Of a DNA stretch of 64,000 nt, positions 4,452-63,736 are shown piece after piece. The stretch lies in assembly GCA_003228915.1 (NCBI GenBank), contig QIGL01000086.1:1-64000 (forward strand), read 5' to 3'. The stretch is from Acidiferrobacteraceae bacterium (GTDB lineage Bacteria; Pseudomonadota; Gammaproteobacteria; Acidiferrobacterales; SZUA-150). The translations under genes were made by a program, and so were the position numbers. The stretch's first letter is position 1; every line of letters starts with the position of its first letter. A model generated the notes under the pieces. It worked only from the letters and a program-made list of their open reading frames with translations, was not told where the DNA came from and did not search any database.

Positions 4452-6125
4452 ATGCCACTAATTCTGGACACAGGTTGCAAAAGCTTACCGGGCAAACAGG
4501 CAGAGAATCACGATGCTGTCACCGTTGCCTACCCCGCACCCGTGCCCTATAACAAACCAGCCGTGCTGGCCATTGCTGATACGGTGGATGAGTCTGACGA
4601 ACTGGATGTGGCCACCCTGGCACTTTCAAGCTTGAGTGAAAATATTTATGCGGCTCCACTTTCATGGTCTTTAAAACGTGTCATGAAAGAAAGTTTTAAT
4701 GCGACCAATAATACCCTGGTAGGCAGCTCAACCAGCACCGGTGCCACCACCCTCTCGGCCCTTGTTTTGCATAAACACCACTGGGTGATCGGCCATGTAG
4801 GCGATACCCGTGTCTGGTTATTACGTGACGCCCGTATTCGTCAATTAACTCACGACCATACACTGACGACTCTGGAAATGGGCTCGGTCGTCACCAGTGC
4901 TTGCGGACTAAATACTGAAATGGATTTACAAATCCTGCATGGTGATCTGCAAGAGGGGGATATTTTTTTGCTGACCTCGGATGGTATTCATGATGTGCTC
5001 AACGGCACTTCGTTGCTGGCGCATTTAATAAAAGATGATACGGCAGAAACAATGGCCAGTAATATTGTCCGGGGGGCAATAACTGCGGGTAGTGCTGACA
5101 ATGTTAGCGCTTGTGTTGCCAAAGTTGAAAAACTGCCTGATGTGGAAACGGAACGCGGTACCGATTCAATTTCTGCCTTACCGGTTTGTTCACTACCACA
5201 CAAAGGCGATACTGTAGATGGTTTTCAAATTCGAGGGCTGGTCCACAAAGGCCGACTGGCCCGCATTTATAAAGCAACTAACCAGAAGTCTGACAAAACT
5301 GTGGCCTTGCGATTTCCTATTCCGGGTCTGGCCGATGATTCTGCCTACATTGATGCTTTTCTGAGAGAAGAATGGATTGGTAAACGCCTGGATCATGACC
5401 ACTTTGTCAAAGCTTATGATATCAGCCCACAACGCCGCACGGTTCTTTACTCGGTACTGGAATACCGACGCGGAGAGAATCTTGGCAAACGTATCGAAAG
5501 AAAAGGTTTTCTGGCAATTGATGAATCGATATATTTAATCAAACAACTCCTGGAAGGACTGGTCTATTTACATAAACAGGGTGTAATGCACCGGGATATT
5601 AAACCTGGCAATATGCTGGTAGACAAAAAGAAGCGGCAGTTATCACTTATCGGGTTTGGATTAAGCAGTATCGAACAGCTCCAGGATCGCGGTGCTGATA
5701 CCAAGGCCTATAGCGGCACAAAAAGTTACATGGCGCCTGAATTACTGGTGGGTGATGAAAGTGATCAACGTGCCGATATTTATTCCGCCGGTGTCACGCT
5801 CTACAGAATGATTACCGGTCATCTCCCCTATGGCAGTGTTTCCGCCACAATAACTACGAACTTTAATTCATTTACTTCAGCCGAGCATTACATTGCTGAT
5901 ATTCCGGAATGGTTACAGGATGTGATGAAAAAGGCTTGCGCAGTCAACTTTGAAGATCGCTTTAGCACTGCGGTCGAATTTCTTGACGCCGTCAATAACC
6001 CGCCTGTTTTGCCTGAGCAACAAACAACGGGGCATAATCAGCCGATCACTGCCGAACCCTGGCAATGGATGATGATTGGAGGTATTACTGTTTTACTGGG
6101 CATGCTCGTTTATTTGTTTCTTTAG
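4452..6125 (+). CDS. Bifunctional PP2C-type phosphatase / Ser-Thr kinase-like protein with C-terminal TM helix
   Basis: PP2C motifs IGHVGDTRVWLLRD, LLTSDGIHDVL, SADNVSACV; kinase fold GVMHRDIKPGNMLVD, SGTKSYMAPELLVG, QRADIYSAGVTLYRM; C-terminal MMIGGITVLLGMLVYLFL. Confidence 0.9.
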   Translation: MPLILDTGCKSLPGKQAENHDAVTVAYPAPVPYNKPAVLAIADTVDESDELDVATLALSSLSENIYAAPLSWSLKRVMKESFNATNNTLVGSSTSTGATTLSALVLHKHHWVIGHVGDTRVWLLRDARIRQLTHDHTLTTLEMGSVVTSACGLNTEMDLQILHGDLQEGDIFLLTSDGIHDVLNGTSLLAHLIKDDTAETMASNIVRGAITAGSADNVSACVAKVEKLPDVETERGTDSISALPVCSLPHKGDTVDGFQIRGLVHKGRLARIYKATNQKSDKTVALRFPIPGLADDSAYIDAFLREEWIGKRLDHDHFVKAYDISPQRRTVLYSVLEYRRGENLGKRIERKGFLAIDESIYLIKQLLEGLVYLHKQGVMHRDIKPGNMLVDKKKRQLSLIGFGLSSIEQLQDRGADTKAYSGTKSYMAPELLVGDESDQRADIYSAGVTLYRMITGHLPYGSVSATITTNFNSFTSAEHYIADIPEWLQDVMKKACAVNFEDRFSTAVEFLDAVNNPPVLPEQQTTGHNQPITAEPWQWMMIGGITVLLGMLVYLFL

Positions 6126-17894: not shown

Positions 17895-21181
<3,287 letters not shown>

Positions 21182-21183
21182 AT

Positions 21184-24100
21184 CTACACAACCATCTCCA
21201 TGGCTTCCTCCACATCAACTGCAACCAGTCTTGACACGCCCGGTTCAGACATGGTGACGCCCAACAACAACTCAGCTGTCTCCATGGTGATCTTGTTATG
21301 CGTGACATAGAGTAGCTGGGTTTCGTTAGACAACTGTTTCAGTATTTCAGAATACCTTTCAACATTGGCGTCATCTAATGGTGCATCAACCTCATCCAGC
21401 AAACAAAAAGGTGCGGGGTTTAACTGGAAAATAGAGAATATTAGTGAGACTGCGGTTAAGGCTTTTTCACCACCGGACAATAAGTGAATGGTACTGTTCC
21501 GCTTGCCTGGTGGTCTCGCCATTACAGTTACGCCTGTATCAAGTAAATCATTGCCCGTCAATTCAAGATAGGCATGACCACCGCCAAATAGCTTGGGGAA
21601 AAATGCCTGGAAACCGGTATTAACCTTGTCGAAAGTTTCCTTAAAACGAGTGCGGGTCTCGCGGTCAATTTTTTGAATGGCTTCTTCGAGAGTCGCCAGT
21701 GCCTGGGCTAAATCATCAAACTGTTTATCGAGGTACGTTTTTCTTTCTGATTGTTCTTCAAATTCTTCAATCGCCACAAGATTAATTGGCCCAAGACGCG
21801 AGATACGGCGGGCAATTTTTTCAGATTCTTCCTGCCAGGCTTCGGCATCGGCCTGTTCAGGCATGTCTGCAATTACTAGTTCAACTGTGAGATTTGATTC
21901 AGCCAGTTTTTCTTCCAGGGTATCGCGACGAACAATCACTTCCTGCCTGTCGATTCGGTTTTGCTCCATGCCCTGTCGGCATAATTGCGCCTGTTCTTCC
22001 TGGCTTGTTCTATTTTTTTCTTGCCCGCGCAAGTCCTCATCCAGGTCTGCGACAACTTTTCGGGCAGATGTCATATCTTTTTCCACAGCTACCTGGTTGC
22101 CAAGATGCTCTTCAAGTTGTGCTTTTAATGTCTGCTCCGGGTCCACATCACTGGATAAGTGTGTTATCAGCTCCTGGCGACGATTGCTAAGTTGTGACAA
22201 TTGTGACTCCAGTCTTTCAATGCTCTGCTGGGTAGACTCAAAAACTGTATTGATACGCTGGTGATCTATTTCCAGCCTGTGCAAACCATCCCGTTTGTCG
22301 TTCGCCAACTCTGTCGTAGACGCCAATTTATTTTTTAGTTCGCCCTGCCTGGATTCAAGAAAATTTCGTTTGTCGGCATGGGAACCAGACATGCCTTCAG
22401 CATTTTCAAGAATTTTCATAGAATCCGTTAAGGTACTGCTATTCTCTTCAATGCCCGCTTCCAGCTCGGTTATGTCATTTGAAATTTGCTTTAATCTGTT
22501 TTCAGTCTGGTTAGCCTGTGTTTCACTTTTGCCCAGCTCGGTTAATATTTCAGTTTTTTCCCGTGTCGTCTCTGTGATAATTCTTCGCAACCCGTCCCGG
22601 TTACTTTCCTGATCTTTAATGCTTGAGCGAAGTGATTCGAGACCTGCCTGTTGCTGATTGATTTTTGCTTCAAGACCACTGAGCTTATTCTCGATAGACT
22701 CAATTTCCCGGGCCCTTGCCAGTATCCCTGCATTAGCCCCCTCCTGGTTAATCAAACTAATCCAGTTTGGTCCCAACAAAATACCTGATTTGGTAACTAT
22801 CGATTCATCATCAGCCAGCCCGGATCTTCTTTTGTTAGCGTCAGCTAAATCTTCAGAAAATTTTACCTTGCCTGCCAACGGGAACAAGTTAAATTCTGAT
22901 TGAATTTTATTCAATAATGAATCGTCACTGACCGTATTTGTTGTTGTGGTATTTTCAAGCACTGCAAGACTGGATGTTTTTAGCGATTCCAGATCCCCAA
23001 TGACCGGGTCGAGTTTATCAACACAAACTGCTGCCAGCGCGTTTCCCAATACCCGTTCTACCGCTTTTTCCCAACCATCTTCAACCTGAATCTTGCCTGA
23101 TAGTCTTGGTTTGTCTGACAGGTTTTTATTGTTTAACCAGCTTGCCAGTTGGTCATCATGTTTGCCTTCTGCATTTTCCTGCAACTCACGTAAAGAATCG
23201 AGCCTGGCGTTTAATCCATGTAACTCATTTTTCTCGACATCGAGCGCTGCACTACCGGAATCAACTGCTATTCGATTGTCCTGAATTTCAGTTTCCAGTA
23301 TTTCGAGCTGTTGTTCCGAGTCTGTACTTCGTTTACTTATTTCTTCTGCTGACTGGCGTAATTGATCAATATTTTCACGGGCCAATGCCTCATTGAGGGT
23401 CTGTTGTTCGGCCTGTAAACGATCCAGACGCACTTTTGATTGTTCTATTTGGGGTTTGATGTGCTGTATTCGTGATCTTTGAATTTCGGCGGCCTTTTCA
23501 GGCTCGGCGGCAATCTCACTAAACGACTGCCACTCTTGTTGCCAGTTTTGTAAATCAGATTCAGCTGTCGTCATCGCTTCAAGTGCTTCGTTAAACTGTT
23601 GTTGCACAGTTTCAATATTCGGTTTGGCGCTGGCAAGTTGCACTTCAAGATCAGATAACAGGGCTTTGTCCTCGGTTAAATGATCGCTCGCCTCTTGCCA
23701 TTGTTGATTAACCTGCTGCTGTTCGCGCTGCTGCTGGCGTCGCGTATCTTTAGTATGTTGAATTTTTTGTTCTATGTTATTTACTTCTGCACCGACAGAA
23801 TAAAATTTTTCCTGTACCTTGTTCAGGTTGTCATTGGCTTCAACCTGTTTTGCCCGTAATGATTCGATGCGGGCTTCGATCTCTCGTTGGACGGCTAAAA
23901 CTGCATCCAGCTCTGTTTGTTTTTGAGAAAGTATCTTATCATTTTCCTTGAGCTCGACTGAAAGTTTCTGCCAGCGCAATACAATCAGCTGCGCCTGCAC
24001 CTGGCGTTCATTTTGTTTTAAGTCTTTATATTTTGCAGCTGCCTTTGACTGGCGCTGTAATTTTTGAATCTGGGTATCAAGTTCACGACGAATATCTTCT

Positions 24101-24681
24101 ACCCGCTCAAGATTTTCCCGGGTATGGCGCATCCTGTTCTCGGTTTCACGACGACGCTCCTTGTACTTGGAAATACCGGCAGCCTCTTCAAAAAATCCCC
24201 TGAGATCTTCAGGTTTGGCTTCAATGATCCTGGTTACCATGCCTTGTTCAATAATTGAATAAGCGCGCGGCCCCAAACCAGTCCCCAGAAATAAATCGGT
24301 AATATCTTTTTTTCGGCAGCGGGTTTTATTGATTGAATAATCTGAATTGCCATCTCGGGAAGCCTCGCGCTTGATTGATATTTCGGTAAACGAGGCATAT
24401 TGACCTGGAGCTTTGCCTTGCTTGTTCTCAAAAATAAGCTCAACAGTGGCTTTACCCACTGGTTTGCGGGTATTGGATCCGCTGAAAATAACATCAGCCA
24501 TGGAATCGCCACGCAGGTGTTTGGCAGAACTCTCGCCCATCACCCAACGCACCGCATCAATAATATTGGACTTGCCACAACCATTTGGTCCAACAACACC
24601 TATCAAATTGGCGTTAATGGGAATGGTGGTAGGATCTACAAATGATTTAAAGCCGGCTAACTTGATTTTTTTCAGACGCAT
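21184..24681 (-). CDS. smc: Chromosome segregation protein SMC
   Basis: MRLKKIKLAGFKSFVDPT...GVVGPNGCGKSNIIDAVRWVMGE; LLSGGEKALTAVSLIFSIF; CLLDEVDAPLDDANV. Confidence 0.98.
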   Translation of the reverse strand: MRLKKIKLAGFKSFVDPTTIPINANLIGVVGPNGCGKSNIIDAVRWVMGESSAKHLRGDSMADVIFSGSNTRKPVGKATVELIFENKQGKAPGQYASFTEISIKREASRDGNSDYSINKTRCRKKDITDLFLGTGLGPRAYSIIEQGMVTRIIEAKPEDLRGFFEEAAGISKYKERRRETENRMRHTRENLERVEDIRRELDTQIQKLQRQSKAAAKYKDLKQNERQVQAQLIVLRWQKLSVELKENDKILSQKQTELDAVLAVQREIEARIESLRAKQVEANDNLNKVQEKFYSVGAEVNNIEQKIQHTKDTRRQQQREQQQVNQQWQEASDHLTEDKALLSDLEVQLASAKPNIETVQQQFNEALEAMTTAESDLQNWQQEWQSFSEIAAEPEKAAEIQRSRIQHIKPQIEQSKVRLDRLQAEQQTLNEALARENIDQLRQSAEEISKRSTDSEQQLEILETEIQDNRIAVDSGSAALDVEKNELHGLNARLDSLRELQENAEGKHDDQLASWLNNKNLSDKPRLSGKIQVEDGWEKAVERVLGNALAAVCVDKLDPVIGDLESLKTSSLAVLENTTTTNTVSDDSLLNKIQSEFNLFPLAGKVKFSEDLADANKRRSGLADDESIVTKSGILLGPNWISLINQEGANAGILARAREIESIENKLSGLEAKINQQQAGLESLRSSIKDQESNRDGLRRIITETTREKTEILTELGKSETQANQTENRLKQISNDITELEAGIEENSSTLTDSMKILENAEGMSGSHADKRNFLESRQGELKNKLASTTELANDKRDGLHRLEIDHQRINTVFESTQQSIERLESQLSQLSNRRQELITHLSSDVDPEQTLKAQLEEHLGNQVAVEKDMTSARKVVADLDEDLRGQEKNRTSQEEQAQLCRQGMEQNRIDRQEVIVRRDTLEEKLAESNLTVELVIADMPEQADAEAWQEESEKIARRISRLGPINLVAIEEFEEQSERKTYLDKQFDDLAQALATLEEAIQKIDRETRTRFKETFDKVNTGFQAFFPKLFGGGHAYLELTGNDLLDTGVTVMARPPGKRNSTIHLLSGGEKALTAVSLIFSIFQLNPAPFCLLDEVDAPLDDANVERYSEILKQLSNETQLLYVTHNKITMETAELLLGVTMSEPGVSRLVAVDVEEAMEMVV

Positions 24682-24774
24682 GGTTTTACCGAAATACTCA
24701 CGAAATATTCAATGTTGGGCAAATTGGGCTACAATCCGCCGCGAGATACGCAAAGCTAGCATAAGGGAAAGTAA

Positions 24775-26838
24775 ATGCCTACCAAGAAACAAAAGGGAGC
24801 AAAAAATGGTCCCGGCAAAACACTGGAATCGTTTGAAAACCCGCATCCTGAGCGGGATTATATTATTGAGATTGAAACCCCGGAATTTACCTGTGTCTGC
24901 CCCAAAACGGGCCAACCCGATTTTGCCACTATCCAGATAGAATATGTGCCTGACAAGGCCTGTATTGAACTCAAATCCCTGAAACTCTACTATTGGTCTT
25001 ACCGGGATCAAGGGGCATTCCACGAGAAAGTAACCAATACTATTCTGGATGACCTGGTCGCTGCCATTGCACCCCGATACTTACATATCAATGCGATATT
25101 TAATGTCAGGGGCGGCGTCTACACCACAATTCAGGCCGAATACCGGCGGCCCGGCTGGCAGCCATTGCCCCCGGCCCCGGACCACTTGCCTAGAGAAAAA
25201 CAGGATTTCCCCCATGACAGGCCAGACCAAGGGGTAAAACAAGACTCTGATACAAGCCAATCAAGTACAGCCCAGTCGGCAGGTGCATCAGGGCAAATGC
25301 CTGCCCAGACTACTCAAAGGCCTGCTAACGAAGCCATGACAACACGCCGCCAGCGTTTCCCCATGCTCGGCAGGGCCAGGAACAAAACCCCTGTCGCAGC
25401 ACCAGAGGTGGTACCTGAAATCACGCCTACCCCAGATGCCTCACCGTCAGCGCCTGAGGCGTCGCCAAGCCCTGATCAAACACAAGGCCCAGAGCATCAA
25501 CCTACTAAAACATTAGATGTGCCTCCACCTGAAGAGGTATTCGCTCGTGATAACCCTGTTTACCTGGGAATTGATCTCGGGACCACTGGTTGCCGCATAG
25601 TGGCAGTGGATTACAGCGGTAACCAGATCACCCAGGCTGAGAGCCCCATTGCCAGCCCCGCACGTCGTGATAACCAGGTCACCCAGGACCCTGACCAGTG
25701 GTGGCAGGCAGTCAGTGCCTGTCTTGATAATATTTTTCAGGTCGTCGAACCTAAACAAATACATTCTATTGCCGTTGATGGCACTTCCAACACTATCCTG
25801 CTTTGTGATAAACAGGGCGTGCCTGTGACCACGGGCCTGATGTATAACGACAGTCGCGCCCAGGCTGAAGCCGCCTTGATTGCCAAGGTTGCAGACAAAA
25901 ATTCCGGCGCCCATGGTGGTAGCAGTGGCCTGTCAAAATTACTCTGGCTGCAAAATAAAAAACTGGACAAAAAAGCAGCCTATGTACTGCACCAGTCAGA
26001 CTGGATTACTGGCAAGCTCATGGGGAGCTGGGGGCACACAGATCACAATAATGCCCTAAAATTAGGATTTAACCCGGAAACACTAAATTGGCCAGACTGG
26101 TTCCCGGCACTTAAAGTCGAGACCAGGTTATTACCTGAAGTCACCGCTCCCGGCGAAGAATTGGGGACCATAAGCCAGGAAATCGCCATGAGTTTTGGTA
26201 TGGCTAACGACACGAATGTCGTGGCTGGCACCACTGACGGCACAGCTGCTTTTCTGGCAGCAGGCGCCACGACGCCGGGTCATGGGGTCACTTCCCTGGG
26301 CTCTACCCTGGTCATTAAATTACTCTCAAAAAAGCCTGTATTTTCACCTGAACATGGCGTTTACAGCCATCGCCTTGGCAACCAGTGGTTAGCCGGCGGC
26401 GCCTCTAACAGCGGGGGGGCGGTTTTATTACAATATTTTAAACCTGAACAAATGACTGAAATGACACAAATGCTGGATCCCGGGAATCTTACCGGCCTTG
26501 ATTATTATCCATTACCCGCCGTCGGTGAGCGATTTCCTGTTAATGATCCGGATATGGTGGCCAGGCTGGAGCCGCTGCCAAGCGACAGTGTTACCTTTTT
26601 TCAGGCCATGCTTGAGGGGATTGCCAACATCGAGGCCCAGGGATACAACCTGCTGGCAGACCTGGGCGCCCCCAAAGTAGTTGAGATTCGAACAACCGGT
26701 GGCGGCAGTCACAACGAACCCTGGCAACGTATTCGTGAAAATATCACCGGCGCAAAAATGATGCCGGCAAACTCTGATTTGTCAGCCTATGGCACGGCAC
26801 TACTGGCGCTCGGCATTGTTAAGGAACGTTTCCAATAA
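24775..26838 (+). CDS. Fusion: N-terminal QueF (preQ0 reductase) + Pro/Ala/Gln-rich linker + C-terminal FGGY carbohydrate kinase
   Basis: aa 1 to about 128: [47 protein letters not shown] (QueF). aa 260-687: [82 protein letters not shown] (FGGY). Single uninterrupted frame. Confidence 0.93.
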
Positions 26839-26870
26839 AAAACGCCCCGAAAAATCGGGGCGTTTTTATT
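26838..26870. terminator. Rho-independent (bidirectional) terminator
   Basis: aaaaacgccccga-aaaa-tcggggcgttttt directly after the QueF-kinase stop, between convergent genes. Confidence 0.93.
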
Positions 26871-29002: not shown

Positions 29003-29446
29003 TCAGTTCTTTTTCAGACGCAAATTCGCATCCCGTAATCGACTGCTGATGCTACCCATAATCCCTAAACTTAATTCTGGATAATTAATAATAAGCGCGC
29101 GTAATTTTGATTTCTCAAGAGCAAGCAGTCCGCTATCCTCCATTACATAAGCTGTTGCTGATCGGGGCTTATCGTCAAACATGCCCATTTCTCCGAAACA
29201 TTCTTTGGCGCCCAGCTCGACAATAAATTCTTTCTTCCCTGGATTAGTCTCTAGCGAAATACCTATTTTTCCGTATTCGATTATGTACATTCTGTCGCTT
29301 GGGTCATTAATATCAAATACTCTTTCGCCAATAAAACAGGCCTCTTCCTCCAGCTCATGGGCAACTACACGTAAATCTTCGGTCGATACCTTTGAAAATA
29401 TCGGGGCTTGCTTAAGAAGTAATATGCGTTCAAATAGATCCGACAT
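29003..29446 (-). CDS. Cyclic nucleotide-binding domain protein
   Basis: APIFSKVSTEDLRVVAHELEEE..., GAKECFGEMGMFDDKPRSATAYV (cNMP phosphate-binding cassette). Confidence 0.88.
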   Translation of the reverse strand: MSDLFERILLLKQAPIFSKVSTEDLRVVAHELEEEACFIGERVFDINDPSDRMYIIEYGKIGISLETNPGKKEFIVELGAKECFGEMGMFDDKPRSATAYVMEDSGLLALEKSKLRALIINYPELSLGIMGSISSRLRDANLRLKKN

Positions 29447-29459
29447 TATTAAATTTTAC

Positions 29460-32087
29460 CTAAGAAAGTACTATTTGTTTTGTTACTACTTGCACCCAGG
29501 GATCCTGCCGCCGGGTGCACCAGTGGATAACGTCCTTAAAATCACCAAATATAGAATAACGCTTGTTTTTTTCGATACCACCATCATATATCTGGCCCAG
29601 CATTTTGGATAAATGCCTGTTCTTTAGATGACGCATCACCTCGCAGGCATAGGCTATTTGCCGATTGTCACCGCTTTTAAGGCCTGCCCTTATAATATTA
29701 ATAGTTGATTTGTCCTCCACATATTCCAGGGAGGCCAGTGATAAATCAACAAACTGTTGAATTCTCTCTTTAAGTATTGCCTGTAATAGTTGCATTGCAG
29801 TCTGCGATGTTAATACTTTGTTATCCGGAATAATCTTAATTGCCGCACGACATTTCAGCGCATCCTCAACTTTCGCTTCAGCTATTCTTTCGTATATGGC
29901 TACATCCGGCAATATTAGCCTCAGGCCATGAAGTGCAGATTGCTGTGCCCTGGGGGTGCACTTGTTATTAATAATCCATCCAAATAGCAAGCCAGCCGGA
30001 TTACTGCTTCTGTTCTGCAATACCTCAATCGCACATTCTCTAACCCTGGGATGACTATCCTCCAGCATAATTAAAGCAGAGTCTTCGATGACAGCAGCCG
30101 GTAGATGAATGTGACAATCCACTGCTAATATCCGAATCTCCGGATCCTCTTGCTGCAACAGATTTTTTAACAAGGAAGACTCATCATTATTTGTGATGAC
30201 AGGCCAAATATACAGGACACGCAATACTGCTTTAACAATTTGACTGGAATCATGGAGTAAAAGTTTTTTTAATATAGGCCCATATTCTTCCAGGTAATGC
30301 TGCTCGAGTAATTGCAGGCCTGCCAGAATTGCTGTGCTGTCTTTACTTTCGAGGAGTGTCCCAAGAGCTTCTTTCGCTTTCGATTCCAGTGCAATTATTT
30401 TGTATTGGAATACGCCATAAATCCCTACTGAGCATAACCTGGGATTTTTATCATAAACGCAACTTTCAACATCGATCATTGCACGTGAACTTTTTTGATT
30501 AAACAATAAAGAATATATCGTCGCTTTCAGATGATTATCTGATCTTTTTAATATCACCCACAATTCTTCTTCTATTTCTCGCAGGTCAATATCAATAATT
30601 AATTTAAGAAGTCGATCACTAAGGGCATGGTCTGCAGTTCTAATTCTTTCAAGCACAACCTGCAAGACTTGCTCAGGATATTCTTTAGCCAATAATTTTG
30701 CATATGAAACAGAGATATCGCTATCTTCCTGCACTACACCTTTTTTTAGCTGGTTGATTAATTCAATACTGCCCGTGTTTACCCCCTCGGGAATAAATAC
30801 TTTTGCGCGCAGTGTAGACAATATCGCATTCACATAAGCCGAATTAATCTTTATATTATAATACAGGTACACAAATACAGAAAATAACCCTGCGTATAAA
30901 TATATTCTAAATTCTTCAAGGTTTTGCATAAACAACAGAAAACCACCTGTCACAATCAGTGCACATGGCAACACCAGGGCAAGTGATAACGCACGGGCCC
31001 TGCCCTGCATATAATCAGGCAATGCATTAAATAATAGATTTCTTACAGGGCTCCTTATGGCAGTCATAATAACTTCTTTGTTGAAACTGGCGAACAATGC
31101 AGCAGGAAATGTAAAACTCAAGATAAGAAATAAATAACTTGTCAGTGTCGTTACCGGAAATACCAGATTTATTTTTTTTATACCAAATATGCGAAATAAC
31201 TTACTGGTCAGGAATGCCTGGATTAATAAAGCAATAGTACCGTTTACTACTGTCAGTAAACCAAAAAATGTACTGAGCGATTCTTCTGTACTGAAAGTCT
31301 CAGAATAAATACTATTTACCGTATAAGTTATAATGTAGAAACCAATCACGATAAAGAATAATGCCAATGATAAAGATCTGAGTAACCTGGAACGCTTTGC
31401 AAATTGCACTCCCTGGATTATCTGGTCTATCGAATAAGCCAGTCCTTTTCTGCCTTTCTTCCCTGATCTGAAATATGGTGAGACGCCGGACCGTCTGTGA
31501 CGAATAATTATCAATGTTAAAGCAATTAATATAAGCGCCACCCATAACAGGATAAAATTCTGGACACCGATTACCGGCGAAGCAAAAGTTAAAGCCAGCC
31601 CACCAATTATTTTCCCGGATTGTGCCGCAGCAAAAATTAACGGGGTTAACCTTTTGGCCTGCATTGTTTCAAGATTCTGATTCACATACAGGAGTGCATG
31701 CATCATTAATAATTCTGATGCGACTTCGTAAACAAGATAATATAACGGGTAGGCGTTACTCCACTGCAAGACACTAATCAGAACCCAGCACCCTAGCAAT
31801 AATATTGTCGTTGCAGCAATGATAACTACAAAAAATTTTTCTGCTGCAATTCTGTCGGCAAACGCAGCATACATTGCGCTGACAATTGACAATAAAATAC
31901 CGAAGGAAATGTACATTACGGGCAAATATTCAATGCCGTAACGTTTAAAAAATAGTGTATCAGCTGAACCACGACCAACAGCCAGCCCCGCCCCGATTAA
32001 TAAAAACAATACGAGAAAGTATGCTGTTGAGTAGTGTTCATCTTCCTTGACTAAAAAGAATTTTGCCAGTCTGTCAGGCAGGTTCAT
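29460..32087 (-). CDS. Npt/ADP-ATP-translocase-like MFS protein with C-terminal HEAT repeats
   Basis: 875 aa; N-terminal polytopic region (FFKRYGIEYLPVMYISFGI...), C-terminal alpha-helical HEAT-type repeats (LEDSHPRVRECAIEVLQNRSS). Confidence 0.78.
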   Translation of the reverse strand: MNLPDRLAKFFLVKEDEHYSTAYFLVLFLLIGAGLAVGRGSADTLFFKRYGIEYLPVMYISFGILLSIVSAMYAAFADRIAAEKFFVVIIAATTILLLGCWVLISVLQWSNAYPLYYLVYEVASELLMMHALLYVNQNLETMQAKRLTPLIFAAAQSGKIIGGLALTFASPVIGVQNFILLWVALILIALTLIIIRHRRSGVSPYFRSGKKGRKGLAYSIDQIIQGVQFAKRSRLLRSLSLALFFIVIGFYIITYTVNSIYSETFSTEESLSTFFGLLTVVNGTIALLIQAFLTSKLFRIFGIKKINLVFPVTTLTSYLFLILSFTFPAALFASFNKEVIMTAIRSPVRNLLFNALPDYMQGRARALSLALVLPCALIVTGGFLLFMQNLEEFRIYLYAGLFSVFVYLYYNIKINSAYVNAILSTLRAKVFIPEGVNTGSIELINQLKKGVVQEDSDISVSYAKLLAKEYPEQVLQVVLERIRTADHALSDRLLKLIIDIDLREIEEELWVILKRSDNHLKATIYSLLFNQKSSRAMIDVESCVYDKNPRLCSVGIYGVFQYKIIALESKAKEALGTLLESKDSTAILAGLQLLEQHYLEEYGPILKKLLLHDSSQIVKAVLRVLYIWPVITNNDESSLLKNLLQQEDPEIRILAVDCHIHLPAAVIEDSALIMLEDSHPRVRECAIEVLQNRSSNPAGLLFGWIINNKCTPRAQQSALHGLRLILPDVAIYERIAEAKVEDALKCRAAIKIIPDNKVLTSQTAMQLLQAILKERIQQFVDLSLASLEYVEDKSTINIIRAGLKSGDNRQIAYACEVMRHLKNRHLSKMLGQIYDGGIEKNKRYSIFGDFKDVIHWCTRRQDPWVQVVTKQIVLS

Positions 32088-44856: not shown

Positions 44857-47800
44857 TTAGATAGTGCTTCCATGGACATAGGAATTTTTCTTTTCATCTA
44901 TTTCATAATTATTGGATTTATTTGCATCCTTTTTATACAGGGAAATAAAAATACCCTGGTCTGTGGGTATTAGTGTCTTGTTATTACCAAACGGATCGTA
45001 GGCTACCGTTAGATAAAGGGCATGAAGATCATCAGGTATATCCTTGCCACTGATCTGCCAACTCAGCCTTTTTTTCTTGATGTCATCTTCATTGACATCC
45101 TGAATATTCGGCAACAGGGTCTTTTGGGATGAAATAAGATAATCAACCCTGTCTTTTTCACTGTCATTCGCTGCCGTTTTAATGCCGCGCAATTCTGTAA
45201 TGACACGGCCATTATTTCCATGATTATAGAGATCAATTTTAACTTGTGCCTGCTCGAATAATGTTGCATGAACGCCGCGATTATGCACCCTGGTGATCCA
45301 TTTCAATTCTGCATCATAAGCAAAAACTAAATTAAAAAATTCACCCAGTTCTTTGCCCAGGTTATCTTTAAATTCTTTATATTTGAGATTTTTTTTCTGT
45401 TGATTGCTCTCGCCTGGTTCTATGTAGGCCTTCTCGCCCCAGTAACAGCGTAACAACCACTCTTCAATAGGCGTTCGGGCAAAATAAACACCCAGTATTA
45501 AAGCGATAATCCCGCCAATCACACCAATAATAGCCAGCACCCAGCCCACCACAGGTACGGTTGCGGAAGCTGCTGCTGCCTCAAATAACAAGATTGCCCC
45601 GCCAATTGCTGCAATACCTCCAAAGACTGCTGAACTCATGTATATATTGGCACGAAATTTTGTGCCTGTTTCTCTTTCTACTGCAGACTTTTCAATATCT
45701 GCCAGCAGGCCAGATATGTTTGCTGCAATGCCCAGCAGACCCGCGGCTTTGCCCAGTGTTTCGCCGATAACCACATAACCGTTAACCTTTGCTGCAAACT
45801 GGCTCAATTCTATACCCTTCTGAATCGTTTGCAGGACAGTGTTACTGGCATCATAAAAATCGGCAGTATTATTGATGCCTTTGTTCAGCAAGTCTTTCCA
45901 GGCCAGGCCCAAACTAATAATTTGAACGGCAGTAATTATTTTAACCGGCACCCGGTTCATATATTCAATCGTCTGTTGCGAGACTGCAGCGGATGGACCA
46001 ATGAAAATTGTTTTGACTTTAATCTGGCCAGTACTGCTTTGTTTAATTACGGGTACTGAACTGGGGTAATGCATATTGACAGATGCCTTGCTGGAAGACA
46101 TTTTTTTCCAAAGCCCATGATCCAGTTCTTTTTCGATCACTGGTATGCCATATAAATGGCTAATAGCGCCTCTAAGATTATTCCACTTGACTTCTTTGTT
46201 TAATTTTGTGAAAGGTAACGCAAGAATATTCAGGATATTTTCAAGGGCCGCATAAGCTTCACTGGTTATTTTTAATGTGTCCTGGATCATTTTTTCATGA
46301 TCTTTTAAATTACTGACAGTATAATACTGAATACGGCTTTCAAACTCTTCCTGAGTTTTTTGTTTTAATATATCCTCGTCCTGTTTTTTTATCTGGTTAT
46401 CTATAACAGACAACATGTCTTTATTTAAGATAATGCTTAAACAATTATTGGTGATACTTTTATCACTATTAAGTTCTTGCTCCAGGTAGGCTCTACCTTG
46501 CTCACTATGGCTGATATTAGTAATAATATCTGACCAAACAGCCAAGGCTTGTCCGCCTGATTTTCTTTTTTCAGGACGGTCATAACCTTCAGAAAGTTCA
46601 AAATCCTGAAAAGCCTGAAAAATAGTCCCGGCACCGGACTTTTCAAGATGAGCAATAAGTTTTTCGATTACTTTTTCTGCTTTTTGTTCTCTTTTTCCCA
46701 GCTCCTCATCATAGTCTTTAATAAATTCAGAGGGGGTTTGGCCGCCGATCCTTTTTAAGAAATCAGCATTATCCTCATCAGATTTAACAAGTTGATCACA
46801 GTACCTGGCAATCACGACTTTGGTGTTTTCTTCACTCTTTATCCAGCTCGATACATCTTCTACTTTTCTGTGAAAATCAATATTAATTGTCCTGGCCAGG
46901 CCAATAGGATCTAACAGCACAACAACCGGGCATTCGCTGTCTTTATACTCATTTTCGGATTCTGTTTTATTTACAGCAGTCAATAATTGGGCGAGACGCG
47001 GGGTTTCAAGTCTTTTGTCAATGTTTTCATTATTTTCATCATGGGCGCGAGACACGGGCATTAGGTAAGTCTCCCTGAGTTTACCTGATCCATCTGCCTT
47101 GCTCAGGTCTATTTTTTGCGCCCTTTTTTCAAGCAGGCTTTTGTCTGCTTTGTACTGGTCATATTTTAGTGTTTTGTGGAGCTCTTCTATGTATCTTGGG
47201 TCTTTTTTATCCAGGCCACCTAGCTTGCAAATATACTCCCAGCTCCATTGGTGCTCGGAAAAACACATGTGGATTTCCGGTGCTTTTCCATTAATAGTTT
47301 CAGGCAAGGCAATCACTGCTTTTTGCTTATCTTCAGTAATACAGGGTCGATTATCTTTGCACTGTTGTGCCGCCAAATTAACATCATAATAACTCCACCA
47401 AGATAGTGCAGTTCTTGGGTCAAGGTTGGCATTATTATGCACCTTGCCTGCCCATGGCTCGACTGCATAAATTTCTCGCCATAAAAACCCATCTATGAAT
47501 ATATAGATGTAACCGGTACGCAAATGCACGAGTTTGTCACTATCACTCTCCCAGAAACTGACAGGGAAAACAGGCGTAAGCTTGGTTTTACTTTTATCTA
47601 CTTTTTCGCCTTTTTTGACCGAATCACCAATACCTAATGGAATCCAGTAATAATTATTATCTTTAACGGGGTATTTTTCTGTATCAAGAAATTTATGAAT
47701 AGCACGCCTATCGCCATTTATTCCAATCAGGGGTACGCCTCTGTAAGCATTGGCGTCATCCTGAAATCTGAGCCAGACATTATAAGAACCCTTTTTAATG

Positions 47801-47913
47801 CGTTCGTAAGTCAATCGCCGCAATGGCTGACCTGACTCATCGGTCCCCTCGGGCAATGCACTGCCAAGAGGCAGGTCCAAAACCGTGTTTTTAAATAATG
47901 CTGTACCCGCCAT
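44857..47913 (-). CDS. Putative T6SS effector, VasX/BTH_I2691-like, with C-terminal transmembrane segments
   Basis: LRTGYIYIFIDGFLWREIYAVE, CPVVVLLDPIGLARTIN; hydrophobic VFGGIAAIGGAILLFEAAAASATVPVVGWVLAIIGVIGGIIALILGVYF; directly downstream of the PAAR-like gene. Confidence 0.75.
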   Translation of the reverse strand: MAGTALFKNTVLDLPLGSALPEGTDESGQPLRRLTYERIKKGSYNVWLRFQDDANAYRGVPLIGINGDRRAIHKFLDTEKYPVKDNNYYWIPLGIGDSVKKGEKVDKSKTKLTPVFPVSFWESDSDKLVHLRTGYIYIFIDGFLWREIYAVEPWAGKVHNNANLDPRTALSWWSYYDVNLAAQQCKDNRPCITEDKQKAVIALPETINGKAPEIHMCFSEHQWSWEYICKLGGLDKKDPRYIEELHKTLKYDQYKADKSLLEKRAQKIDLSKADGSGKLRETYLMPVSRAHDENNENIDKRLETPRLAQLLTAVNKTESENEYKDSECPVVVLLDPIGLARTINIDFHRKVEDVSSWIKSEENTKVVIARYCDQLVKSDEDNADFLKRIGGQTPSEFIKDYDEELGKREQKAEKVIEKLIAHLEKSGAGTIFQAFQDFELSEGYDRPEKRKSGGQALAVWSDIITNISHSEQGRAYLEQELNSDKSITNNCLSIILNKDMLSVIDNQIKKQDEDILKQKTQEEFESRIQYYTVSNLKDHEKMIQDTLKITSEAYAALENILNILALPFTKLNKEVKWNNLRGAISHLYGIPVIEKELDHGLWKKMSSSKASVNMHYPSSVPVIKQSSTGQIKVKTIFIGPSAAVSQQTIEYMNRVPVKIITAVQIISLGLAWKDLLNKGINNTADFYDASNTVLQTIQKGIELSQFAAKVNGYVVIGETLGKAAGLLGIAANISGLLADIEKSAVERETGTKFRANIYMSSAVFGGIAAIGGAILLFEAAAASATVPVVGWVLAIIGVIGGIIALILGVYFARTPIEEWLLRCYWGEKAYIEPGESNQQKKNLKYKEFKDNLGKELGEFFNLVFAYDAELKWITRVHNRGVHATLFEQAQVKIDLYNHGNNGRVITELRGIKTAANDSEKDRVDYLISSQKTLLPNIQDVNEDDIKKKRLSWQISGKDIPDDLHALYLTVAYDPFGNNKTLIPTDQGIFISLYKKDANKSNNYEIDEKKNSYVHGSTI

Positions 47914-48452
47914 TACTCTTCTCCACCATCCGGTTGCTCGATAACCACAGATGATTTCAACATGTGAAAGTTATTACCTTTAACGTCTACCGTATATTCA
48001 AAACCAGGATCTTCAGCTTCTTTTGTTTCTGCTTCAGTGGCTGATAATTCAGGTGGTTGCCCAGCACCTGGCTGTTGCAATGGTACGGGTGGTGTATTTT
48101 TATTATTTGATACCATGAGATCGGTTTGCCTGACAGCGGGAATGCCTTCGATATAAACATTGGCGGAAAATGTAATGAACTCTGCCATGCCCTTTATAGA
48201 TCCAGATGACACGCCACCACAGGCTCCGCCCTCATCGCCCGAACTGACTGAAAAATTAGCGTCCTTATTACAGGCCGGATTGCCATTTATCATGACACTG
48301 CCGGCAGTTTTAGCTGAATTACTGGAAGTGGCAGTATTTGTATAGGGTATGGGGGGGCATTTATCCGGGGTTTTGCATACATCCACTGTTGTGAGCGTAC
48401 CCCCTGATCCTGCATGCACTGCCGTAAGGCCGTTAATGACTACATTGCTCAT
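47913..48452 (-). CDS. PAAR-like DUF4150 protein (T6SS spike tip)
   Basis: MSNVVINGLTAVHAGSGGTLTTVDVCKTPDKCPPIPYTNTATSSNSAKTAGSVMINGNPACNKDANFSVSSGDEGG. Confidence 0.88.
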   Translation of the reverse strand: MSNVVINGLTAVHAGSGGTLTTVDVCKTPDKCPPIPYTNTATSSNSAKTAGSVMINGNPACNKDANFSVSSGDEGGACGGVSSGSIKGMAEFITFSANVYIEGIPAVRQTDLMVSNNKNTPPVPLQQPGAGQPPELSATEAETKEAEDPGFEYTVDVKGNNFHMLKSSVVIEQPDGGEE

Positions 48453-48462
48453 TGTTTTATCC

Positions 48463-49650
48463 TTATGCTGCCCGTTTCGGGTTTTGTTTGCGTTTACTAT
48501 CTTGACTCAGGTGCACAGCCCCTCGCACTACATGGCTGCTGGCATCACAAACAATCAAGTTACTAATATCTGGATAACTAAATTCGAATCGCCCACAGGA
48601 CAAGGCCAATGCAATCGGTAACGTGGCTGCGCCAACATTTCCTGTCACACTGGTCATTTGCAGAATTTCCGGGCTAATAATTGTTCCTGGTTCTGGCTGG
48701 GGCGCTTCTATTTCACCTACCTGCATTGCCAAACGTTGTTTTTCTTCCAGTACAGTTGGCCATATTTTCTGCTGTACCTGGTGCCATTCCAGTTGTTCGC
48801 AGATCTCCTGACCAAATGGTAATAAAACAGTATCGATAGCCGCGGGCGATATGTTGTTTTTGCTTATAATTTCGCTAATAGAATCAGCCAAACCAAGTAA
48901 TTTTTTATGCTCGGCACAGCGGCTATTAGGCTCTGGTTTAAATGTTATGCCACTAATTTCAATATTTTCATTTTCGTCATCAGGTTTTCTTGTTTCCAGC
49001 AACAGAAATGCAGCACCTTCACCGGGGAGTTGACCATTTGGAATATCTCTGGTCAGCAGTCTGTTTTCTCTGGCCAGTTCGGCACAGGTCGCTTCATTAA
49101 TTAATGAATCTGCCCCACCAAAAATTACGGCTTGCCATTTCCCGTCTGCTAACTCCTGGCAACAAGATGAAAGAGCGTTGGCTGCACCTTCATTGACACG
49201 TATGAACCTGTATTCCATGGCGCCAAATGATGTATTCAGTTTGCTTACTGATAGATGTCTATTGTAAATCCACTCTTTAAGGTAATTTTCTGCGTAAAGC
49301 TCATTTATTGCGGCGCCTCTTGCCTCGCTCAAAGCAGGCAGTAAAATACAACAAAGAATTCTGGAATGATCAATTTCACGGTCAATTTTATCAATAATCT
49401 GTCCGAGTGCAGTACCCGCAAGCTCCATCATTCTCTCGGCAGGATTCTCTGAAGCCACCATTTCAGTCATCACACACAATGGTGAGACTGCCTCATCATC
49501 GGGGTCAGGTGACGCTACCTCTATACCCAACTCTCGACAATTAATTATATTACCGCCCAGGGCACCGTATAGAGCAAAAGGCTGGTTACCAGCTGTACAA
49601 CAAAGGCCGATATCAGTTATTACAATATTGTTTGTACTGTTAGTGTTCAA
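48463..49650 (-). CDS. Thiolase-fold / beta-ketoacyl-synthase-like T6SS-associated protein
   Basis: NEGAANALSSCCQELADGKWQAVIFGGADSLINEATCAEL and MTSVTGNVGAATLPIALALSCG resemble ketoacyl-synthase segments. Confidence 0.72.
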   Translation of the reverse strand: MNTNSTNNIVITDIGLCCTAGNQPFALYGALGGNIINCRELGIEVASPDPDDEAVSPLCVMTEMVASENPAERMMELAGTALGQIIDKIDREIDHSRILCCILLPALSEARGAAINELYAENYLKEWIYNRHLSVSKLNTSFGAMEYRFIRVNEGAANALSSCCQELADGKWQAVIFGGADSLINEATCAELARENRLLTRDIPNGQLPGEGAAFLLLETRKPDDENENIEISGITFKPEPNSRCAEHKKLLGLADSISEIISKNNISPAAIDTVLLPFGQEICEQLEWHQVQQKIWPTVLEEKQRLAMQVGEIEAPQPEPGTIISPEILQMTSVTGNVGAATLPIALALSCGRFEFSYPDISNLIVCDASSHVVRGAVHLSQDSKRKQNPKRAA

Positions 49651-49694
49651 TTTTTATATTTTCTATTGGTAAGCCAATCAATACAATCCGGTTT

Positions 49695-50753
49695 TCAGGA
49701 TGCTTTTTCCAGACTTTGCTTTGTATCGTAATTTTGATCCTCAGCCAGAATTACCCACCCTTTGCGGGGTTCTGCCCTGCTCCACGGGATCCCGGCACGC
49801 CAGATCATACTTATAATTTGGCGATCAGTATCAATAACAAGCGTGTCACATTTGGTGTTGATCTTTTGCTGATTTTGCCCCGTTACTTTCCAGGTGTCAT
49901 GATGTAACTCTGGTAAAATTAGCTCAAGTGGTTTGGCTGGTGGTATCTCAGGCAAAAAACCGGTTAAGGTGATAATTTCGCCGCCTTTTAAATTAGTGTT
50001 AAACCGCTGATCAAGGGGGGCTACGTTATAAAAAGACGGTTTTAAATCATCGCCAAATGGACATAACCCTGCCCTGGCAGACGCTTCGTCCAACGTACCG
50101 GCATCGTTTTTTCGTGGCGACCAAAAAACGGGTAAGGGACCATATCCCGCTGGCAAAGGCTGGTCCCTGGGAGATTTGATGAATTTTGGGCCTATTTCAA
50201 TCTGCGGTAATTCTGTATCAGAAAATTTAGTCGGGTCTGAAAAAAATCCCTGACCAGCCCTGTTGGCTTCAAATTCAATACCTGTCTCTCTGTCAATACC
50301 ACCGTAGGCATTTTCATACGTTAGTGGTACCGGTCTTCCGATGTTTTCCGGTTCTGATGCCCTTGGTGCAAAACGCATCCCTTTCCATGTGCGCTGCCCA
50401 AAAATACGCAGTATTTTCTGCCAGCCATTGCCATCGGGAGTCTTCATGCCCAACTTAACTTCCATCACTTTTTGGCTGGTTTGTGGCGGTGTAGCAGTGC
50501 CGTGCAAGTAAATTTCACTACCCATTTTAATTGGCGCGATTTCATTAGCAATTTTTAAACTGGTCTCGAGCGATTTACCATAATGCTGGTCTGTTTCTTC
50601 AATAGGCAATTGATCGGGCATCGGTGTGAGTTTTCCTGCTTGATCAAATTCAAAACTGGCTTTAATAACACATGTCCACTGGAATTCCTGATTCAACTGA
50701 AAACCCGGGTAGAGGCCGGCAGACCATGGTCCCTGGTTAGATAATTCAAGCAT
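49695..50753 (-). CDS. DUF2169 domain protein (T6SS accessory)
   Basis: NQGPWSAGLYPGFQLNQEFQWTCVIKASFEFD; LTYENAYGGIDRETG; FWSPRKNDAGT. Confidence 0.85.
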   Translation of the reverse strand: MLELSNQGPWSAGLYPGFQLNQEFQWTCVIKASFEFDQAGKLTPMPDQLPIEETDQHYGKSLETSLKIANEIAPIKMGSEIYLHGTATPPQTSQKVMEVKLGMKTPDGNGWQKILRIFGQRTWKGMRFAPRASEPENIGRPVPLTYENAYGGIDRETGIEFEANRAGQGFFSDPTKFSDTELPQIEIGPKFIKSPRDQPLPAGYGPLPVFWSPRKNDAGTLDEASARAGLCPFGDDLKPSFYNVAPLDQRFNTNLKGGEIITLTGFLPEIPPAKPLELILPELHHDTWKVTGQNQQKINTKCDTLVIDTDRQIISMIWRAGIPWSRAEPRKGWVILAEDQNYDTKQSLEKAS

Positions 50754-52020
50754 GGCTTGCCGCCCTGCTTGCTTCTGGTTGTCCCTGTACCTGGTTTGAT
50801 ATTTCGTTAAACAACACTTCTTGTTTGATTATCCAGGTATTACTGCTTATAGATAAAGGCTCACCAAGAGACAAAACCAGTAAATCTTTAAGATCCTGCC
50901 CAACTAACCCGCAAACCTGTTTGGCACGTTTTAATAAAAAATATTCAGAAAATTGTTCTCCGGATATTTTCCTTGCCTCGTCTTGCCAATGATCCTTGTG
51001 TTGTTGCCACCACGATACTGCCAGGGAACTATCAGGAATTAATGGTACATCGAGCGCTGCACCTGGTGCCGATTTACCATCATCGCTCACAAGTTTCATC
51101 CGGGGAACCATTGGTAGCTGTTGTCCCGTTAGCCATGTCCATGCGTGCGCAGCTAAAACGGTTTCACGGCCGTTCTCAAGATAATCAAGCAACACATTTG
51201 CTGCTTGCTTACGGCCAGTCAAAGCGAGCAAGTGCAGGCCGGGTCCGGGGTGCGATACTGCCCATGCCTCAACAAGTTGATATAACTCGTCATCCCCGGA
51301 TAATGCTGCCAATCGAATAATGGCTTCACTATTTTCAGACGGGGTTTTTGCGATTGCCGTGCTGATTTTTCTGTTTATTTCAGGATCGCCTCGTAACATA
51401 CTTCCCCACAGCGCCGATACTAGACTATCTGTCGCTATAGAAAACTGTTCGTTCTCAGAGAACAAACTGGCAAGTGCAGCTTGGAAAATATCCATACCAA
51501 ATTCTTTTTTACCGGCTGCATAATGCAGTGCGGCTGAAGCTATTTCCGGATTGTTATGATTAACGACTGCATTAACAATTGCCATGTCGATGAAAATTGA
51601 TTGGTCACGCCAGAGATTGAATAACACTGGCTGTACTTCTTCATTCGTTTGGAATAAATTGACCAGTTTTTCATTAGTACTTTGGGGATAGTTCAGGAGC
51701 GCCTGGCAGGACGCTTGCTGCTGTGAGTTATTGCCAACTAGCAATTCTAGCGTCAAATCATAAGCCTGATTTCGAATACCTTGATCATTTGATTGCAATC
51801 TTCTTGCTAAATATACATATAACTCGTGTTCTTTTTCGGGGACTGCTTCGTTGGGGTCGATTGTGTATGAGAGCACATGGATATGTACACGCTGTCGATG
51901 CTCAAGGCTCGCCATGCTATGACTGCCAACTTCGGCCTGTTTTAGCCAAAGTTTTTTTTGGCGATAAAGCGCGGCAGAAACTTCCAGGTGGGTGTCTAGA
52001 TAAGGAACTTCGGAGTGCAT
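50746..52020 (-). CDS. HEAT-like helical-repeat T6SS-associated protein
   Basis: 424 aa with helical-repeat character (SAALHYAAGKKEFGMDIFQAALASLF, AANVLLDYLENGRETVLAAHAWTWLTGQ); inside the T6SS accessory cluster. Confidence 0.65.
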   Translation of the reverse strand: MHSEVPYLDTHLEVSAALYRQKKLWLKQAEVGSHSMASLEHRQRVHIHVLSYTIDPNEAVPEKEHELYVYLARRLQSNDQGIRNQAYDLTLELLVGNNSQQQASCQALLNYPQSTNEKLVNLFQTNEEVQPVLFNLWRDQSIFIDMAIVNAVVNHNNPEIASAALHYAAGKKEFGMDIFQAALASLFSENEQFSIATDSLVSALWGSMLRGDPEINRKISTAIAKTPSENSEAIIRLAALSGDDELYQLVEAWAVSHPGPGLHLLALTGRKQAANVLLDYLENGRETVLAAHAWTWLTGQQLPMVPRMKLVSDDGKSAPGAALDVPLIPDSSLAVSWWQQHKDHWQDEARKISGEQFSEYFLLKRAKQVCGLVGQDLKDLLVLSLGEPLSISSNTWIIKQEVLFNEISNQVQGQPEASRAASHA

Positions 52021-52022
52021 GC

Positions 52023-52511
52023 TTAATTCAGCTCAATAATACTGCCTTGCAAACGTAACGGGCCTTCGGCAATACTATATATATCTTTGCCATCGACGCG
52101 AATTTTCCCGTTTGCGTGTATCTCTATACTGCTGGCGCCGGTTTTTAGGGTAATGCTTTTGGTGGCATCCAGCTGTAAATGCCCATCCTGCAAATCTATC
52201 TGTGCTTTAGGTTTTTCACTTGCTGATAACCAGCTACCCAGGATCCCTACTCCTTGTTCTGTTTCCAGTACCAGTACTTGCTGGCCCGCTTTTAATTTTG
52301 GGATAATACCGGGGATAGCTGCCAGGTAGCCAGCAACAGGTAAAATGCGATTTTCCAGCTTTATAAATATTGAACCGTCAGAATTTAGCTTATGGACCGT
52401 GGCAATTTTTGGTAGTGTAGAAACGAGATTTTCTGACTGAAAACGACTATCTGCATCAGAACCAGGTCCTTTGGCATTAATTGTTAATTTTTCCGGTGCT
52501 GATTTTGACAT
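52023..52511 (-). CDS. DUF6484-like T6SS-associated protein
   Basis: 162 aa; VLVLETEQGVGILGSWL, C-terminal beta segment ATKSITLKTGASSIEIHANGKIRVDGKDIYSIAEGPLRLQGSIIELN. Confidence 0.65.
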   Translation of the reverse strand: MSKSAPEKLTINAKGPGSDADSRFQSENLVSTLPKIATVHKLNSDGSIFIKLENRILPVAGYLAAIPGIIPKLKAGQQVLVLETEQGVGILGSWLSASEKPKAQIDLQDGHLQLDATKSITLKTGASSIEIHANGKIRVDGKDIYSIAEGPLRLQGSIIELN

Positions 52512-52613
52512 ACGCGCTCCTGTTATACCGCTAAAATAAATTAGAAAATAAAAGTATTATCCGTCCTGATTAATGACAGGTCTGGTTATTTCCATGCCTG
52601 GTTATTTCCAGAT

Positions 52614-54692: not shown

Positions 54693-54733
54693 AGTTTTCC
54701 TTAATTAATATTTCTTTCTATCTTTTTTTTAAA

Positions 54734-57622: not shown

Positions 57623-57701
57623 TGGTATATTCCGTTAAATAATATTTTTAATATCCTGCATTGCAACTTGTAAGTACTTGATAAAATTTTTAGTTGGCTG
57701 T

Positions 57702-58745
57702 TTATGCTGCCTGTTTTTGCCCGGGAGCACCGTTTCTTTCATTTTTCTCGTGGTCGTCTTTGTTCTGAAATTCACCACCTGACACGTTGATTGGATATTC
57801 AGCACCGGCAGCTTCGCCCAACCAGCTACGCCAGCCAAGTCGTAACCCATCATCACCCAGTGTCGGTGCGGTACCGGTTGTACCTGCTACCATGATGGTC
57901 ATGTCATACTCTATAATATTGTCGAGATACTGATTCGTTAGTTTGTCCAGCATTTTTCCGTAGGCGTGAACTGGCAATAATCTTTGCGCTGTCGTATAGG
58001 AAACCGGGCCAACCGTTATATGCACCTTGCCACCCACATCCAGCACCTGGTCACCGGTCACGGTATTGTCCCCGAGCACCATCGCCTGGCCGGCTTGATC
58101 TGTCTGGCCCAGGCCAATCGGTTTGCTTATCTGCACCCAGCGCGGCACATATTCCCTGACCTCGACCGGGGCACCAACCAATTCCCGGACCATGCCTGTC
58201 AGGCCAGTGGCGCTGCGAAAACGGCGGCCATATAAACCGGAAAAACGTAATGCTGATAACGATTTTGGTAAGTCATCGCGGCCAGATAACGCCGAAAAAT
58301 ATCGACGATACCTGGAGTCTGCCTGCTCCAGGTCAATTGCCGGCCGATATTTTTTCCATGCCAGGTACAGGAGTGCGTAGGTGCGATGACTATATATATC
58401 AAGGAATGCTCGCGTCGACTCGCCAGCAGCATCATTTCGCAAAACGGTCTGGATGAAATAGTGGGGAACCGGTGCATCTACCCCATAAAGCCCCATAAAA
58501 TTTAACTGGATATCGAGCCGACCATTTTCTTCGTTCCTGATAATGCGCTTGATATCAGCAGCCGGGAATCCAATTTCACGAGCCGGGCGAAAGCGCGCCT
58601 TTTCTTCAAACGACTTGTCCCGTTTGCCGATTGCACCCCAGACACGCTCAAGTATTCGCACGACCTGGAAAAAGTCGTAACCGGGCCCATTTTCTGCCAG
58701 GCGGCGAATTAAATCGGGGAGGCGTCGCCGAACGTCGGTTGCCAT
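57702..58745 (-). CDS. tssG: T6SS baseplate subunit TssG
   Basis: YDFFQVVRILER; MGLYGVDAPVPHYF; FSGLYGRRFRSATGLTGMVRELVG. Confidence 0.94.
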   Translation of the reverse strand: MATDVRRRLPDLIRRLAENGPGYDFFQVVRILERVWGAIGKRDKSFEEKARFRPAREIGFPAADIKRIIRNEENGRLDIQLNFMGLYGVDAPVPHYFIQTVLRNDAAGESTRAFLDIYSHRTYALLYLAWKKYRPAIDLEQADSRYRRYFSALSGRDDLPKSLSALRFSGLYGRRFRSATGLTGMVRELVGAPVEVREYVPRWVQISKPIGLGQTDQAGQAMVLGDNTVTGDQVLDVGGKVHITVGPVSYTTAQRLLPVHAYGKMLDKLTNQYLDNIIEYDMTIMVAGTTGTAPTLGDDGLRLGWRSWLGEAAGAEYPINVSGGEFQNKDDHEKNERNGAPGQKQAA

Positions 58746-60460: not shown

Positions 60461-60884
60461 AACTAGACGCCTTTATCTTGCCTTGCGATACTCGTGCAGC
60501 ACCGCCACTAACAAACATCGTTTGGTAGACAACTTTATGGCCATCCCAGGTACTGCCATTAATGTCCAGTCGAATCACAAAATCGGTTTCTTCTACGGGC
60601 ATAACCGTTACCCTGACCCGTTTTAACCGGGGCTCATATTTCTCAACAGTTTTTTTGACTGAATCTACAAGATCGTTGATTGAATAGGGCATTTGCTGAT
60701 AAACAGCCGTTAAGTCCGGCAGGCCATAATCAGGTAGATGTGTGAGCACGCCTTGTCTTGCATTAAACAACCGGACAAGGTGATCCTGGATGCTTCTGGA
60801 TTGTGCATTGAGCTTATCTACAGAATCGACCGGACGGCCGTCCATAAACCGGACACTAAGCACATCAAACAGCGCAAACGACAT
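60453..60884 (-). CDS. tssE: T6SS baseplate subunit TssE (gp25-like)
   Basis: LFNARQGVLTHLPDYGLPDLTAVYQQMPYSINDLVDSVKKTVEKYEPRLKRVRV. Confidence 0.95.
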   Translation of the reverse strand: MSFALFDVLSVRFMDGRPVDSVDKLNAQSRSIQDHLVRLFNARQGVLTHLPDYGLPDLTAVYQQMPYSINDLVDSVKKTVEKYEPRLKRVRVTVMPVEETDFVIRLDINGSTWDGHKVVYQTMFVSGGAARVSQGKIKASSYA

Positions 60885-60916
60885 CGCAGTGTTTCTTCAG
60901 GGAAGATAGAATAAGC

Positions 60917-60941: not shown

Positions 60942-60955
60942 ATTATCCATTCTTA

Positions 60956-63735: not shown

Positions 63736-63736
63736 T

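Follow-up and report, generated by a model that had tools for sequence, protein, structure and literature searches.

What links a queuosine-biosynthesis enzyme to a sugar kinase, and what is gained by making both as one protein? The question is raised by a frame of 687 codons on the forward strand at positions 24,775 to 26,838 of the window (the whole 64,000-nucleotide stretch analysed), which is uninterrupted and, from its domain matches and homologous fused frames, encodes QueF, a linker, and an FGGY kinase of the AtXK-1/SePSK type (687 aa). A Shine-Dalgarno-like AAGGGAA (24,763 to 24,769, +) lies 5 bases upstream of the ATG, and a rho-independent terminator with a 13-pair stem (26,838 to 26,867, +) follows the gene; the former was read from the sequence. 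Pfam matches above the curated cut-offs were obtained for QueF (PF14489, E 1.4e-31, aa 48-126), FGGY_N (E 6.2e-31, aa 262-494), and FGGY_C (E 1.7e-12, aa 505-679). Together with the NCBIfam matches and the hairpin, they bear out the sequence-only reading of a single frame carrying QueF, a linker, and a complete kinase ahead of a strong terminator. Inspection of the fused gene revealed no convincing internal site from which ribosomes might start a free kinase, and no preQ1 riboswitch or other Rfam element was matched within the window.

The QueF domain covers aa 16-129 (24,820 to 25,161, +) and scores 173.4 bits against a cut-off of 86.9 for the QueF-II model TIGR03139, matching model positions 5-114 of 115. 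When aligned to the QueF structures 4f8b and 5udg, its residues C42, D49, H83, and E84 fall at the positions of Bacillus subtilis QueF C55, D62, H96, and E97, the catalytic Cys and Asp and the substrate His-Glu; all four are at least 97% conserved among 62 aligned QueF sequences. Exactly one place in the window's own genome matches the fused protein. A check for another queF, proposed with the initial reading, thus found only the fused one, with no second QueF in that genome. Tgt and QueC are also present, as is QueE, within a tol-pal-queE-queC cluster. Since the catalytic residues are intact, no second QueF was found, and QueC, QueE, and Tgt are encoded, the QueF half, a single-module QueF of the ordinary kind, most likely serves the cell as its sole preQ0 nitrile reductase in making queuosine; a working queuosine pathway through the fused domain is the natural inference. 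Within a few kb of tol-pal-queE-queC, a phosphoribulokinase gene adjoins a sox-like cluster, both in this genome (L164, G000:C5:55001-73000) and in relatives. A single QueC-phosphoribulokinase operon in the window's family was considered and rejected, as the tol-pal-queE-queC cluster neighbors the sox/prk cluster without forming one operon with it.

The kinase half occupies aa 261-683 (25,555 to 26,823, +), as defined by Pfam, PDB matches, and alignment to SePSK. Its closest PDB matches are AtXK-1 (5htr, E 3e-95) and SePSK (5htn, E 6e-91), while other solved kinases match at E 6e-23 or weaker, confirming the likeness to this group that had been proposed from the sequence alone. The catalytic residues D8, T11, and D221 of SePSK correspond to D267, T270, and D488 of the fused protein, the ATP-site residues N380/W383 are kept, and the ribulose contact Ser72 is kept as S338. 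A second ribulose contact, Ser222, is replaced by Gly489 in the window, and glycine is found there in 28 of the 29 fused kinases and in two separate kinases. The xylulokinase XylB model (TIGR01312) stayed below its curated cut-off (165.5 bits vs 380.25), and the fused protein was far below every cut-off of the NCBIfam models for the glycerol, gluconate, L-ribulose, rhamnulose, and fuculose FGGY kinases. D-ribulose kinase activity has been demonstrated for SePSK, the response of AtXK-1 to D-ribulose was weak, and the physiological role of this chloroplast and cyanobacterial group is not settled (PMC4880283). We read the kinase half as most likely phosphorylating D-ribulose to D-ribulose 5-phosphate because of the activity assayed for SePSK, the conserved catalytic residues, a near-strict co-occurrence with RuBisCO, and the presence of cbbY near many relatives. 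As the Ser222 to Gly change lies at a ribulose contact, the substrate could differ, making D-ribulose likely rather than certain.

The co-occurrence was seen across 370 genomes of the class, where RuBisCO was present in 137 of the 147 kinase-bearing genomes vs 47 of the 223 kinase-less ones; the kinase was called present at E below 1e-62, and the genome lists were transcribed by hand, so a few assignments near the threshold may be wrong. Sampling one genome per family gave 55/57 and 16/83 (odds ratio 115), which lessens but does not remove the lineage structure of the association. The odds ratio was 29.5 among genomes with this QueF type and 42 among genomes without it. The link between the kinase and QueF had an odds ratio of 4.4 in RuBisCO-positive genomes (p 0.006; 6.1 and p 0.07 with one genome per family) and 6.2 in RuBisCO-negative genomes (p 0.017; not significant with one per family). 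The kinase family therefore tracks RuBisCO, not queuosine, and its link to QueF is weak once RuBisCO is given. Moreover, Bradyrhizobium, Azohydromonas, and Thiocystis carry the kinase without an adjacent queF. The earlier suggestion that the kinase serves deazapurine or queuosine metabolism is not supported, because the kinase follows RuBisCO with or without QueF and also occurs away from queF. RuBisCO itself had no match in the genome of the window, which is 95.9% complete and does encode phosphoribulokinase; this counts against the Calvin-cycle reading, although the congener G001 has RuBisCO, and the absence reflects either a loss or an assembly gap. The near-strict co-occurrence in Gammaproteobacteria, with cbbY nearby, makes a role in Calvin-cycle salvage testable in bacteria.

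On its smc side, the fused gene keeps the conserved context of the queF-kinase pair. Of the loci L131-L156, all 26 have queF and the kinase gene adjacent on the same strand; of the 72 loci L059-L130, 49 do. In relatives with two such genes, some pairs are a few hundred bases apart and others overlap by 1 or 4 bp, as measured from the longest frames with approximate starts. The remaining 23 of these 72 named loci have the kinase without a nearby queF, some of them being cut by contig ends. The usual layout has ligA-zipA-smc pointing away from queF-kinase-cysZ, with an aminotransferase gene and cbbY further on, on the opposite strand. In the window, smc (21,184 to 24,681, −; TIGR02168) is the divergent neighbor of the fused gene, followed by zipA (19,901 to 21,181) and ligA (17,895 to 19,904), and the smc family is found in 85 of the compared loci. 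The HAD-protein neighbor is a close relative of AtCbbY and RsCbbY (E 3e-52 and 6e-52), and CbbY clears xylulose bisphosphate, a RuBisCO inhibitor (PMC10212915). Since smc, zipA, ligA, and cysZ have no evident role in common with the pair, the adjacency is partly plain conservation of gene order, and within such a slowly rearranging block it is, by itself, a weak pointer to shared function. The pair does survive without the smc context in L064, L072, and L123. In two relatives, the unfused kinase gene beside queF seems split into two frames (L036, 2976-4282, in G007; L045, 9579-11072, in G030), where the kinase may be on its way to being lost or the sequence may contain errors.

Elsewhere in the window, soxZ and soxY (TIGR04490 and TIGR04488; 26,913 to 27,749, −) are convergent with the fused gene, consistent with a sulfur oxidizer. 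At 29,003 to 32,087 (−), a cyclic-nucleotide-binding protein is encoded beside an 875-aa protein with a membrane-like N-terminus and C-terminal HEAT repeats, whose N-terminal part had no Pfam match. A PP2C phosphatase fused with a Ser/Thr protein kinase lies at 4452 to 6125 (+). A type VI secretion-like cluster at 44,857 to 64,000 (−) contains, by eye, ClpV-, VgrG-, Hcp-, TssB-, TssC-, TssF-, and TssG-like frames, along with a DUF2169 protein, a ketosynthase-like one, and one of 1018 aa that matches VasX_N below the threshold.

How widespread is the fusion itself? Matches to the fused protein were found in 54 of 60 relatives, and frame calling on their loci revealed, in addition to the protein of the window, 28 distinct fused ones, counting the 90%-identical one of congener G001. 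In a maximum-likelihood tree of 62 kinases, all 29 fused rows form one clade (support 97/90), which, by the names in the genome collection, falls with Sulfuricaulis sp. and 'Candidatus Muproteobacteria'; we infer that its order is Acidiferrobacterales. Two relatives with separate genes, first G002 and next G003, branch just outside and belong to the same family as the window, and none of the 29 sampled members inside is a split descendant. A phylum-wide sample of 299 genomes yielded no fused form outside the order. The spread of the architecture, for which a domain search had been proposed, is thus a single clade, its 28 other members mostly from the same order, and the literature searched yielded no published account of a QueF-kinase fusion or operon. 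The simplest account of this phylogeny is a fusion that arose once. The QueF tail of G003 is longer and contains DLPRESRELP and SRFRQLGDRRQN, each of them similar to the fused linker, and G002 has no such tail; either the tail predates the fusion or G003 and G002 have lost the fusion. A contig labelled Gallionella sp. (L053), whose fused gene closely matches a Sulfuricaulis-like one, is probably mis-binned.

Between the two enzymes lies a Pro/Ala-rich linker of about 125 aa (aa 136-260, of which aa 136-258 are annotated at 25,180 to 25,548, +), which is predicted to be disordered, with pLDDT below 50 for aa 144-242 of the AlphaFold model. The linker had been described beforehand as about 130 aa and rich in Pro, Ala, and Gln; across the fused clade, Pro (20%) and Ala (17%) predominate, Arg comes next (9%), and Gln is scarce (3.5%). 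Between the window and the congener, dN/dS is 0.038 in QueF and 0.050 in the kinase against 0.55 in the linker, with dS equal across the three at about 0.46. The low ratios in both domains and the high ratio between them indicate that both enzymes are under strong purifying selection and kept functional while the linker drifts. Across the clade, the linker ranges from 58 to 136 aa and is unalignable outside one motif, with the consensus RFRMLxRxRR, which in the window's protein lies at aa 192-202 (25,348 to 25,380, +). The core R[FL][RP]MLxR, which fixes several motif positions by construction, occurs in 23 of the 28 other fused linkers and in no shuffled linker; beyond the core, position 8 is Arg in 20/24 and position 9 in 16/24. 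The motif sits 31-79 aa downstream of QueF and is missing from three f6 sequences, L030, and L017. A contact of the motif with either domain was considered and rejected, as the AlphaFold model leaves the linker, motif included, disordered, with a thin alignment in that region. Conservation of a basic and hydrophobic motif in an otherwise drifting linker implies one further shared role, which may be docking, localization, or self-association. Docking to carboxysomes was rejected, as the carboxysome protein CsoS2 is mostly confined to the unfused family f3, and only three of the fused genomes (G008, G013, G021) have it while most lack it. A motif common to other proteins of the same genomes was also rejected: an RFRMLxR DNA pattern, restricted to CGN codons for Arg and CTN codons for Leu and not fitting the RFPML variant of the window, matches mainly the fused gene, and its few other matches are chance-like.

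Taken together, we consider it probable that the protein combines two ordinary activities, preQ0 reduction and a D-ribulose-type kinase salvaging a Calvin-cycle by-product, through one fusion of an old gene pair, with a further role for the motif. The ancient adjacent and often overlapping queF and kinase genes would have been co-expressed, and a single fusion would then have fixed that co-expression in one bifunctional protein. The kinase would salvage free pentulose lost when Calvin-cycle intermediates are dephosphorylated, its reaction need not be coupled to that of QueF, and the linker motif may add docking, localization, or self-association with a putative partner. QueF is a ring-forming oligomer, and the fusion might instead have been recruited as a scaffold, in which the QueF ring displays several kinases and the motif docks the assembly on a partner (a Calvin-cycle enzyme, the membrane, or RNA). 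We regard the recruited scaffold as quite unlikely; if true, it would tie tRNA modification physically to autotrophic carbon metabolism.

The fusion could also be neutral, a stop codon having been lost between overlapping co-transcribed genes and the product tolerated across a disordered linker, with no selective role. The 1 or 4 bp overlaps in relatives, the freely varying length (58-136 aa) and sequence of the linker, and the single origin are what such an event would leave, but the retention of RFRMLxRxRR by 23 of the 28 other linkers and the lack of any split descendant in the fused clade speak against it, and we hold it to be unlikely while granting it a real chance. The related suggestion of a chance fusion whose parts work independently holds for the independent working; 'chance' is too weak a word, because one old fusion of an already conserved pair has been kept in all 29 sampled members. 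A single shared pathway, with the kinase acting on a deazapurine or queuosine compound, or QueF on a pentose-linked nitrile, and the fusion channeling the intermediate, would account for a pair conserved over much of the class, fused once, and persisting without smc in the three loci above. However, the kinase tracks RuBisCO rather than QueF and stands without an adjacent queF in Bradyrhizobium, Azohydromonas, and Thiocystis, the QueF active-site residues are unaltered, and a long disordered linker is untypical of channeling, all of which leave this pathway very improbable. Two separate genes in related genomes, named beforehand as a sign of an assembly error, were indeed found in the nearest relatives outside the fused clade, but they represent the ancestral gene pair. 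That two genes were joined artificially, through misassembly, a frameshift, or annotation, is practically excluded by the 28 other distinct fused sequences, some from single-contig genomes (G010 and G015), by the fused congener, and by a dN/dS pattern expected of a real coding frame.

The probable account, two ordinary enzymes joined once, makes this fusion a clean case of two unrelated enzymes passing from an old overlapping gene pair to one protein, and the motif RFRMLxRxRR, new here, offers a concrete starting point for learning what the fusion contributes. Compared with known systems, the fused protein resembles B. subtilis QueF and the QueF-II structures (4f8b, 5udg) in the whole domain and the catalytic Cys, Asp, His, and Glu, but single-module QueF-II stops after about 130-165 aa, whereas the fused protein continues into the linker and kinase. 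SePSK (Synpcc7942_2462; 5htn) and Arabidopsis XK-1 (At2g21370; 5htr) are the nearest solved structures over the full kinase length; in contrast to SePSK, the window kinase sits behind QueF and has Gly for Ser222 and Thr for Ser12. Chromatiales, Ectothiorhodospiraceae, and other Gammaproteobacteria (L032-L050, L059-L156) have the same two genes in the same order and on the same strand, mostly beside smc and often cysZ, but these relatives make two proteins, and the tails inspected are without the linker motif, save for the related SRFRQLGDRRQN in the QueF tail of G003.
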